Positions 54,721 to 58,664 of a stretch of DNA of 64,000 nucleotides are shown piece by piece (within the stretch, counting starts at the first letter, position 1; each line of letters begins with the position of its first letter). The DNA lies in assembly GCF_023091245.1 (NCBI RefSeq), contig NZ_JAHWXN010000001.1, forward strand, positions 1 through 64,000, read 5' to 3'. A program made the translations under genes and the position numbers. Origin of the DNA: Microbacterium croceum. GTDB lineage: Bacteria; Actinomycetota; Actinomycetes; Actinomycetales; Microbacteriaceae. Under the pieces are notes generated by a model, which saw only the letters and a list, made by a program, of their open reading frames with translations, was not told the origin of the DNA and made no database searches.

Positions 54721-56235
54721 TCAGCGGCCGGAGACGGTGCCCATGGTCTTGGCGATCGGCGCGAGCACCAGCGGGCGCGCCGCGAACCACGCTCCGGCGA
54801 TCACCACGAGGGATGCCACGAACACCCAGAACCCGGTCCACGTGACCGCATCCTGCGAGGCGTACATGTGGTTGAGGTTGCGCAGGAACCCGGTCAGCAT
54901 CACCAGCGCCACGTGGGCGATGATGAACACCACGAAGTACAGCATCACCGGGAAATGCAGGGCACGGGCCCACTCCACCGGGTACGCCTTCGACAGACGC
55001 TCTGCTTTCTTGGGCCACATGCCCGACATGCGGAAACCGGTGATCGCCGCGAGCGGCGCGGCCAGGAACACCGTCGTGAAGTAGGCGAGCTGTTGCAGGC
55101 TGTTGTAGTTGTTCCAGCCGTTCTCGTGCGGCCAGTCGAACGACACGTACTGCAGCGCCGCGGACAGCGCGTTCGGGAAGACCTCCCAGCTGGTCGGCAC
55201 GATGCGCACCCAGTGCCCGGTGACGATCAGCAGCACCACGAAGATCACTCCGTTGACGAGCCACAGGATGTCGAGGGCCTGGTGGAACCACAGCGTCAGG
55301 CTGATCTTGCCCTTGGGGTTGTTGCGCGGCGACCAGAAGACGGTCGGCCGCTTCTCGCTGCGCACCCGCAGACCGGAGCGGATGATCAGCACCATCAGGA
55401 ACACGTTGAAGAAGTGCTGCCAGCCGACCCACGGAGCGAACCCGGGCGCGACCGCGATCGCCGGCTCGTACTCGCCGGGGAAAGCCGCGAGGAAGTCCTG
55501 CATGAACGGGAAGCTCAGCAGCGCGCGCACGAACGCGATCGCGGCCCCCGCGAGCACGCCGAGAGCCGCGGCCCCCATGAGCGCGGCGATCGCCTGCGGC
55601 CAGGTCGGACGACGACGAGCGGATGCCGGCGCCGGTGCAGCGGGGAGGTGACGCGGAGCACGGCCGTTCCAGACCGTGCGCGCGCCGCGCAGCGGAGTGT
55701 CGATGTCGGCCGCGAGCACACTCGTGCGGGCTGCCGGGAGAGTAGTGATCTCGGTCCCTGAGCCCACCTCGACCTCGGCCCCTGAGCCTGACGAAGGACC
55801 CTCCGAGGACACTGCCGCCGTAGGCAGCGTTCCGGCCGGAGGCCACGGGTCGCCACCCGCCACGCGCGGAAGCCCGCGGCGCACCGCGGAGGCGGCTGCG
55901 CCCGGTGCCGGCGCTGCGCCCGCACTCGGTGCCGCAGCTATCGGTGCGGCGGTCGGCACCGTCGCTGCCGGTGCTGTGGGCGCCTCCGGGCGAGCGGATG
56001 CCTCAGCCGGCGCCGGGGACGGCGAGACATTCGCGGGGGCAGCGGTCGCCTCGGCGGGAGGCCAGGGCTCACCTCCCGGCACGCGCGGGAGCCCGCGACG
56101 GACGCGGAGTGCGGAGTGCCGCGAGGTCGGGGACGCCTCGTCCTTCGCCGCCGCGTCTTCGACCTCCACGGCGGGCGGCCACGGATCCCCGCCCGCCACG
56201 CGCGGCAGTCCGCGCCTCAGCATCCGCGATGGCAT
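54721..56235 (-). CDS. Cytochrome b-type membrane protein with three N-terminal [11 protein letters not shown] motifs
   Basis: A 504-residue protein in two parts. Residues 1-210 are Ala/Pro-rich and probably disordered, and carry [15 protein letters not shown] at 7-21, [15 protein letters not shown] at 46-60 and [15 protein letters not shown] at 119-133. Residues 212-490 form about six membrane helices resembling b561/formate-dehydrogenase-gamma-type cytochromes, with candidate haem ligands H274, H318, H341 and the H427-x13-H441 pair. It starts 3 bp after etfA, in the same operon as etfB-etfA, so it may take electrons from ETF (inference). A dispersed repeat (55753-55800) encodes residues about 146-161. 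Confidence 0.8.
55753..55800. repeat. Dispersed REP-like repeat, two partial copies, inside the cytochrome b gene
   Basis: GGTCCCTGAGCCCACC and CCCCTGAGCCTGACGAAGGACC are adjacent variants of the pgm repeat (21768-21792). In frame; encode Gly/Ser/Glu-rich linker. Confidence 0.6.
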
Positions 56236-56237
56236 GG

Positions 56238-57209
56238 CTACTTCTTCCGCGCCTCGAGGGCGGCGATCACCTGGGGCACGACCGTGAACAGGTCGCCGAC
56301 GATGCCGAAGTCGGCCACGTCGAAGATCGGCGCCTCGCCGTCCTTGTTGATCGCGACGATGGTCTTGGAGGTCTGCATGCCCGCGCGGTGCTGGATCGCG
56401 CCGGAGATGCCGAGCGCGACATACAGCTGCGGCGACACCGAGACGCCGGTCTGCCCGACCTGGTGCGACTGAGGGATGTAGCCCGCGTCGACCGCGGCAC
56501 GGGAGGCTCCGACCGCGGCGCCGAGCGCATCGGCGAGCTCCTCGACCAGGGCGAACTTCTCCTTCGAGGCGAGGCCGCGACCGCCCGAGACGACCCGGGT
56601 CGCTCCACGCAGCTCTGGGCGCGAGGAGGCGACCTCGACCGCCTCGACCGCACCGGCCGTGGCGGCGACGGCTCCGGACGGGGTGACCTCGATCGCCTCG
56701 ACGGTCGGGGAGGCGACGGCATCCGCCCTGGCATCCACCGCCCCCTGGCGCACCGTGATCACGGGTACCCCGAAGGTCGGCGCGGAGTCCACGAGGTAGG
56801 CGCCGCCGTACACCGAGTGATGGGCGACGATGCCCTCGTCGTCGCGCGAGAGTCCGATCGCGTCGACCGAGAGCGCGCTCTTCGTGCGCACGGCGAAGCG
56901 GCCGGCGACATCGCGACCTGCGATCGAGTTCGAGATCAGCACGGCGTCCGGTCCGACGCGGTCGAACGCCGCCTGCAGGGCATCGACGATCGGCACGGTG
57001 AGCGCCGTCTCATCGCCCTCGGCGGTGAGCACGAGTGCAGCGCCTGCGGCCGCGGCCTGATCCACGGCGGACTGCGTGCCGCCGACGATGAGCGCGACCG
57101 GGGAGCCGACCGTGGAGGCGGCACCGATCAGCGCCGCCGTGCTGCTCGCGGCATTCCCGGCGGGGTCGACGTCGACCAGCACCAGGATCGGGTTCTCGGG
57201 AGTCGTCAT
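56238..57209 (-). CDS. etfA: Electron transfer flavoprotein alpha subunit
   Basis: A 323-residue FAD-binding subunit of ETF. The C-terminal half carries the family signature [26 protein letters not shown] and [13 protein letters not shown] followed by KTIVAINKD and DFGIVGDLF. With EtfB it accepts electrons from acyl-CoA dehydrogenases. ATG 57209 lies 1 bp after the etfB stop. Followed 3 bp later by the cytochrome b-type gene. Confidence 0.95.
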
Positions 57210-57210
57210 C

Positions 57211-57987
57211 TCACACCAGCCTGTTCTGCACGAGGTACTCGACCAGCTTCGTGCCGGCGTCGCCCTCATCGGTGATCTTCACGCCCGCGGCGCGCGGGGG
57301 CTTTTCCGCCACCGCGGTCATGATCGTGCGGGGCGCCGCTGCCGGGTCGGCGGAGACACCGAGGTCGGCGAGCGACAGCACCTCCAGCGGCTTCTTCTTC
57401 GCCGCCATGATGCCCTTGAAGTTCGGGAAGCGCGCGTCGGGGAGCGCCTCGGTGATCGAGATCACTGCGGGCAGCGCCGCGGAGACCGGTTGGGCACCGG
57501 CATCGGCGGCACGACTGCCGGAGACGGCATCCGCGGTGATCTCGACGGACGAGAGCGCCGTGGCCTGCGCATAGCCCAGGTGCTCGGCGAGCATCGCCGG
57601 GAGCACCCCGCCGGAGCCGTCCGTCGACAGGTTGCCGGTGATCACGAGGTCGGGCTCGGCGCGGCGGATGGCGGCGGCCAGCACCTCGGCGGTCAGTCCG
57701 AGATCGGCGCCGGCGAGTTCGGGGTCGGAGATGTGCACGGCGGATGCCGCACCGATCGCGAGCGCGCGGCGGATCGACGCGGTCGATGTCTCGGGAGCCA
57801 TCGAGAGGGCGACCACCTCGACGCCCTCGTTCTTGTCGGCGTGACTCAGCGCCACCTCGAGCGCCCGCTCCGTGATCTCGTCGAGCACCACGTCTCCGGC
57901 CGCACGCTCGGCCAATCCGGTCTCGAGATTCAGCGTGCGATCGCCATAGGTGTCCGGCACCTCTTTGACCAGGACGAAGATCTTCAT
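57211..57987 (-). CDS. etfB: Electron transfer flavoprotein beta subunit
   Basis: A 258-residue AMP-binding subunit of ETF, opening [20 protein letters not shown] and containing [23 protein letters not shown] and [17 protein letters not shown], the recognition-loop and signature regions. ATG 57987 has GAGGAG upstream. First gene of etfB-etfA-cytochrome b; the probable primary partner is the acyl-CoA dehydrogenase at 61393-62577. Confidence 0.95.
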
Positions 57988-58127: not shown

Positions 58128-58664
58128 GTGGTCCGATCCCGCCCGCTGCCCGTTGATCCGCTCGCCGAGGCGAAGCGTCAGTGGATCGCGCACGGATGGT
58201 CGGATGCCGCGGACGGCATGGCGGTCGTCACCTCGGTCATGCGCGCGCAGCAGCTGCTGCTGGCCCGGGTGGATTCCGCGCTCAAGCCGTTCGCACTGAG
58301 CTTCGCCCGCTACGAGGTGCTGCGGCTGCTGGCGTTCAGCCGCGCCGGTCGCCTGCCGCTGTCGAGCGTCGTGGCCCGCCTCCAGGTGCACGCGACCACG
58401 GTCACCAGCACGGCCGACCGGCTGGTGCGCGACGGACTGATCGTGCGCGAGCCGCATCCACACGACGGCCGGGCGGCGCTGCTCGCTCTGACCGACGCTG
58501 GGCGCGATCTGGTCGAGCGGGCGACGGCAGCGCTCAACGCCGATGTGTTCGCCGACCCGGGCATCGGTTCTGCGGACGCCGCCGAGCTCGTGGCGATCGT
58601 GGCGCGGCTGCGCAAGGACGCCGGCGACTTCACCGACCCGCGCCCCCTCCCCGAACCGCTCTGA
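58128..58664 (+). CDS. MarR-family regulator
   Basis: A 178-residue protein with a MarR winged helix: LPLSSVVARLQVHATTVTSTADRLVRDGLI and wing PHPHDGRAALLALTDAG. GTG 58128 has GGAG upstream. It is followed 1 bp later by an SRPBCC gene, with which it forms an operon, and is divergent from etfB; it may control either side. Confidence 0.85.
   Translation: MVRSRPLPVDPLAEAKRQWIAHGWSDAADGMAVVTSVMRAQQLLLARVDSALKPFALSFARYEVLRLLAFSRAGRLPLSSVVARLQVHATTVTSTADRLVRDGLIVREPHPHDGRAALLALTDAGRDLVERATAALNADVFADPGIGSADAAELVAIVARLRKDAGDFTDPRPLPEPL

Follow-up and report, generated by a model that had tools for sequence, protein, structure and literature searches.

The window analysed here, a stretch of 64,000 nucleotides from Microbacterium croceum, carries an operon in which the genes for both ETF subunits are directly followed by a gene for a membrane cytochrome b, and gene context and sequence indicate that this cytochrome is probably a new exit for electrons from ETF. 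We lean towards the view that etfB, etfA and the cytochrome gene (cytb) form a self-contained ETF-to-menaquinone module, in which ETF is tethered by several copies of a short motif located in the cytochrome's N-terminal tail. The more specific proposal that the protein represents a third, non-homologous ETF:menaquinone oxidoreductase, i.e., a di-haem cytochrome b that acts alone with neither flavin nor iron-sulfur clusters and is equipped with a multi-copy docking motif, we consider evenly balanced between right and wrong. The route may be one that has so far not been described for passing ETF electrons to the respiratory chain; in the open-licence literature, no title or abstract opening among the matches listed describes this cytochrome, its motif or the operon.

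All three genes reside on the minus strand in the order etfB, etfA, cytochrome gene. The ETF beta subunit (258 amino acids) is encoded at 57211..57987 and matches PF01012 with an E value of 1.9e-28. The gene for the alpha subunit, etfA, spans 56238..57209 and its product matches PF00766 (1.1e-34) and PF01012 (7.8e-20); note that these scores were computed on a longer open reading frame beginning at 57269 and that the likely start at 57209 was read from the sequence. The third gene (54721..56235) encodes a b561-type membrane cytochrome b (PF01292) of 504 amino acids with a motif-bearing N-terminal tail. Its start is separated from the etfA stop codon by 2 bp (56236-56237), and not by 3 bp as given in the first-pass annotation. 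Farther upstream in the window, genes are present for an enoyl-CoA hydratase, a 3-hydroxyisobutyrate dehydrogenase-like protein, an acyl-CoA dehydrogenase and an aldehyde dehydrogenase. This set looks like one for valine breakdown and would make a plausible electron donor to ETF. Among the neighbouring open reading frames scanned, none encodes a subunit of a hydrogenase, a formate dehydrogenase or a molybdoenzyme. Divergent from the etf operon is a gene for a MarR-type regulator (58128-58664, plus strand), whose product possibly governs the operon's expression.

The membrane part of the cytochrome had been described as a six-helix, histidine-rich cytochrome b-like domain, and this assignment holds. 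Hydropathy analysis yields six hydrophobic segments in a core comprising residues 218-504 (54724..55584, minus strand), and PF01292 (prokaryotic cytochrome b561) matches the protein with an E value of 3.4e-10 and 40.4 bits, above the curated cut-off of 30.1. The same family is matched at E<=1e-3 by all 22 aligned cores, and the only further Pfam match of the window cytochrome, PF03907, is sub-threshold. We take PF01292 to cover also the b subunits of Ni-hydrogenase, formate dehydrogenase and thiosulfate reductase; the cytochrome studied here differs from other proteins of the family by its long motif-bearing tail and by having ETF as its neighbour. All 41 cores, solo and distant forms included, retain the histidines H274, H318, H427 and H441, and H456 is nearly invariant (found in 25 of the 27 ETF-linked cores and in 10 of the 14 solo ones). 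All five occur in each of the 46 rows of alignment A3, 40 of which are free of cysteine, as is the window protein (0 cysteines in 504 residues). Four invariant histidines combined with the lack of cysteine are consistent with a protein that carries two haems and no iron-sulfur clusters. Arginine and lysine residues number 22, 8, 6 and 3 in the stretches on the side of the tail and 1 in each stretch on the other side. As the loops rich in these residues share the tail's side, the positive-inside rule places the tail in the cytoplasm together with ETF. A second copy of the cytochrome was not detected in the genome at E<=10, and a search by sequence for a solved relative returned none, the best match being a partial one to 6btm_D with an E value of 0.031.

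Three near-identical 15-residue motifs had been reported at residues 7-21, 46-60 and 119-133, and all three were recovered in the minus-strand open reading frame 54721-56235. They follow the pattern RRGLPRV-x-GG-[DE]-PWPP and correspond to positions 56173..56217, 56056..56100 and 55837..55881 of the same strand, respectively. The statement that they lie within an otherwise unconserved, Ala/Pro-rich extension was borne out by alignment A3. Averaged over the columns of its 46 homologues, the most frequent residue reaches a share of 0.76, 0.83 and 0.87 in the motifs, 0.36, 0.38 and 0.42 in the spacers, which are poorly conserved and rich in alanine and proline, and 0.82 in the core. At the DNA level, the 45-bp copies differ pairwise at 8-10 bases, corresponding to 6-8 synonymous and 0-2 non-synonymous codon changes. 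Because the copies differ mainly at synonymous sites, it is the motif peptide that is maintained. A degenerate DNA pattern for the motif occurs at three places in the 3.68-Mb genome, all of them in the cytochrome gene, and the reversed control pattern produced 0 matches in the same genome. When the genome was searched with the peptide as query, the next-best place outside the motif copies scored an E value of 0.019. Homologues carry one to four copies with the wider consensus RRGLPR-x2-GG-[ED]-PWPP.

The distribution of the gene was followed in two samples. The first consisted of the best 80 of 158 confirmed relatives, equivalent to 79 distinct loci, mostly from Microbacterium, and is biased towards bearers of the motif because one of the six search words was derived from it. 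The genes etfB and etfA are located directly upstream of the cytochrome gene in 68 of the 79 loci, which constitutes a genetic link and not a proof of function; in the remaining 11, the contig itself begins within the cytochrome gene or right at its start. A loose motif pattern matches 75 loci. Two of the four negative ones are cut within the tail (L051, L074) and the other two contain degenerate copies (L019, L075). The motif also appears in three loci from Micrococcaceae (L053, L055, L056). Contigs often end within the cytochrome gene, as seen for these 11 loci and for genome G143 of the second sample, and perhaps the repeats break assemblies.

The second sample comprised 149 genomes of the order, that of the window included, and was queried with the core only. 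A strong core homologue was defined by a best E value <=1e-100, EtfD by E<=1e-60, the motif by E<=1e-3 and ETF alpha by E<=1e-8; a gene within 2.5 kb of etfA on the same strand was counted as etfA-adjacent. Strong core homologues were found in 29 genomes, and a further 3 genomes have weak ones, with E values from 1e-31 to 1e-36. The gene is etfA-adjacent in 16 of the 29, and 13 possess the non-adjacent form only. Note that two genomes counted as non-adjacent (G002, G070) have etfA on the same contig about 9 kb away, and that in G143 the gene is interrupted by contig ends, one contig holding etfA plus a motif and another the core plus a motif. The motif is present in 15 of the 16 etfA-adjacent genomes versus 0 of the 13 with non-adjacent forms only, and the sixteenth (G117) has the degenerate copies RRRRGLP and RRRGLP. 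One genome, G185, encodes both a motif-bearing linked and a motif-less copy. All 42 motif matches at E<=1e-3 sit between etfA and the core or, in G143, at the cut ends, and they are spread over families f1, f38, f40 and f41. Four weaker matches (0.002-0.0035) in other genomes look like chance. Occurrence of the motif away from etf genes had been named as evidence against a role connected with ETF; across the 149 genomes, every match at E<=1e-3 belongs to an etfA-linked cytochrome gene.

This distribution bears on the question of what the motif binds. The cytochrome could be an ETF exit while the motif recruits some other partner, be it an acyl-CoA dehydrogenase, a respiratory complex or the cytochrome itself, and could, for instance, help to concentrate the enzymes of beta-oxidation at the membrane. 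The linkage to ETF indeed concerns the whole gene, the motif is a feature of the entire ETF-linked clade, and the number of copies varies from one to four, all of which such a partner would accommodate. Less easily accommodated are the absence of the motif from the 13 genomes with non-adjacent cores only, the lack of matches elsewhere in the survey and a published parallel, so that we grant this explanation a modest chance. According to a study on mycobacterial EtfD (PMC13083937, EMBO J 2026), that protein contains a disordered region in which conserved repeats are dispersed and which is not visible in the structure, and an AlphaFold3 model has ETF contacting EtfD via this very region. The same study states that bound ETF was not seen in purified EtfD and that such disordered regions are short or missing in FadF and DgcB. 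In an earlier report (PMC8593149, 2021), EtfB is one of 49 proteins co-immunoprecipitated with EtfD. Docking of ETF is, on comparative grounds, the likeliest reading of the motif.

The case for an ETF exit also depends on what else the genome offers. The assembly (G000) measures 3.68 Mb in 3 contigs with a completeness of 100, and exactly two ETF-domain matches were found in it, both in the etfB-etfA operon, i.e., there is one ETF. Genome scans for PF05187, PF21162 and PF02754 gave no match, and therefore no ETF:quinone oxidoreductase, FixC-type protein or EtfD was found. In 14 control genomes, PF05187 was detected in Caulobacter, Thermotoga and Sulfolobus, PF21162 in E. coli and Caulobacter, and PF02754 in 12, including B. 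subtilis. The negative results for PF05187 and PF21162 have to be counted together, since the controls reveal that each misses some ETF-linked dehydrogenases. The observation that no known ETF exit is visible near the etf genes thereby extends to the whole genome as far as these three domains report, and a standard ETF:quinone oxidoreductase elsewhere, which had been named as evidence against the proposal, was sought with PF05187 and PF21162 and did not turn up.

In the order survey, EtfD was detected in 43 of the 149 genomes and never together with a strong core (0 of 29); a single genome (G098) combines EtfD with a weak core. Assuming independence, the chance of finding no EtfD among the 16 adjacent genomes is 0.003, or 2e-4 among ETF bearers. 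As the genomes are not independent, genus g49 is more telling than these probabilities. Within it, the motif-bearing module occurs in G071, G088, G160 and G174, EtfD in G104, G118, G132 and G146, and a motif-less non-adjacent core in G053 and G188. Of the 110 genomes in which ETF alpha is present, 42 have EtfD, 25 a strong core and 43 neither (among the latter G060, G094 and G056). An argument by elimination is weak, because with 43 of 110 ETF-bearing genomes the lack of both exits is not rare. Four of the 29 strong-core genomes (G067, G100, G115, G171), all among the 13 with non-adjacent forms only, gave no ETF alpha match, and the core must therefore have some other use too. Motif-less core homologues apart from etfA were also collected as loci L124-L137, for which another partner is presumed.

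It is conceivable on these grounds that the cytochrome is a menaquinol-linked or generic b561-type protein, which works in the reverse direction or with another donor, and that an unrecognised protein reoxidises ETF. The non-adjacent cores, those without ETF in particular, and the ETF-bearing genomes with neither exit would suit such a role. It leaves without explanation why EtfD is missing from all strong-core genomes, why one system replaces the other within a genus and why etfBA immediately precedes the gene in 68 of 79 loci (contig ends truncate the remaining 11), and we consider it quite unlikely. We favour the cytochrome as the ETF exit because no EtfD occurs in the 29 strong-core genomes and because of the replacement within genus g49. 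The original proposal of an ETF-to-quinone route with a docking motif hence gains from the mutual exclusion with EtfD and from the published EtfD parallel. The core family also occurs without ETF, as 4 of the 29 strong-core genomes gave no ETF alpha match. By far the least probable explanation is that the motif is non-functional, a recently duplicated segment in an expanded low-complexity tail, as the weakly conserved Ala/Pro-rich spacers might suggest, since the copies differ mainly at synonymous sites and the motif recurs in four families of the order sample and in Micrococcaceae.

In a tree of 41 cores, a strong branch splits the motif-less non-adjacent proteins from the ETF-linked ones, with the exception of the solo protein of G115, which fell inside the ETF side. 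Grouping all 14 solo rows together was not rejected (p-AU 0.69). That G115 lost ETF and the motif together in a separate event was considered and dropped, as the constrained tree shows that the placement is not firm. Motif and linkage mark one clade, and a single gain or loss thus accounts for both the tail and the link within the operon, so that their correlation counts as one event. A comparison of residues special to cytochrome-linked EtfA (23 linked versus 14 other rows) and EtfB (32 versus 14) revealed no clear patch; note that the linked rows are a chosen subset of loci, in which special residues may only mark a distinct clade. The mixed EtfB-EtfA-cytochrome alignment A4 had a mean column identity of 21% and no conserved columns.

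Among known systems, those nearest to the cytochrome include proteins of the EtfD/EMO/FadF type, a membrane ETF exit to menaquinone in actinomycetes, which share with it the supposed task and the genetic link to EtfBA. EtfD has Fe-S and CCG (HdrD-like) domains, whereas the cytochrome has neither cysteine nor a CCG match, and EtfD tails follow the CCG domains while that of the cytochrome is N-terminal. ETF:quinone oxidoreductase, FixCX and EtfCX are FAD/Fe-S proteins with the same supposed task, transfer of electrons from ETF to quinone; of the ETF:quinone oxidoreductase and FixC domains PF05187 and PF21162, neither matches the cytochrome.

The tail was readable in 18 of 20 EtfD regions, which were chosen partly for long open frames. 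Seven of these 18 tails exceed 150 residues and six of the seven contain repeated short motifs: KGLGIAxGAKRPG (L144, L146), which we take to be the mycobacterial type, a KGLGMKGAAKAPG-type repeat (L145), GSLFD (L147) and DPWD (L152, L160). Each repeat-bearing C-terminal tail holds 3-10 copies, and the motifs differ between lineages. The other 11 tails, those from genus g49 included, are 18-40 residues long and free of repeats, and in an earlier set of 30 EtfD loci, 18 of the 20 readable tails had <=32 residues. A repeat tail is thus unnecessary for an ETF exit, because most readable EtfD tails are short and repeat-free, and it may serve to strengthen ETF binding without being essential. Profile comparison with 2000 column shuffles gave no sign of kinship between the cytochrome motif and the EtfD repeats (p 0.48 for the KGLGIA type of L144/L146, 0.47 for L145, 0.32 for GSLFD and 0.07 for DPWD). 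A shared [KR]GL...GG pattern, with common descent of the motif and the EtfD repeats, was dropped on these values (p 0.07-0.48). As judged from these comparisons, what the cytochrome and some EtfD proteins share is a design, the repeat tail, and not sequence.

We propose the following course of events for the module. Acyl-CoA dehydrogenases would reduce EtfAB. The six-helix cytochrome would be oriented N-in, with a tail of roughly 200 residues extending into the cytoplasm, and the motif copies would retain EtfAB close to the membrane by weak binding. The flexible tail would keep ETF close while it shuttles between the dehydrogenases and haem. ETF delivers electrons singly; these would enter a haem b on the cytoplasmic side and move from there, via a second haem or directly at a quinone site, to menaquinone, which is presumably the quinone of this lineage. 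The presence of two haems, ETF as the partner of the motif, menaquinone as the acceptor and the direction of flow are what we infer.

If correct, the module would account for ETF reoxidation in Microbacterium-like actinomycetes without EtfD or ETF:quinone oxidoreductase while branched-chain amino acids and fatty acids are broken down. It would also mean that haem alone can replace Fe-S relays, that the repeats of mycobacterial EtfD are one case of a wider pattern and that some actinomycete ETF exits arrived independently at multi-copy motif tails with unrelated motifs. The motif itself offers a short peptide suited to direct assays of ETF binding. Family f38 (L164-L167) contains in addition a second, divergent ETF, whose etfA is 32-35% identical to that of the window. 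It lies near a gene for a protein of 837-861 residues with an N-terminus that looks nucleotide-binding, perhaps, as a guess, a dimethylglycine or sarcosine dehydrogenase.
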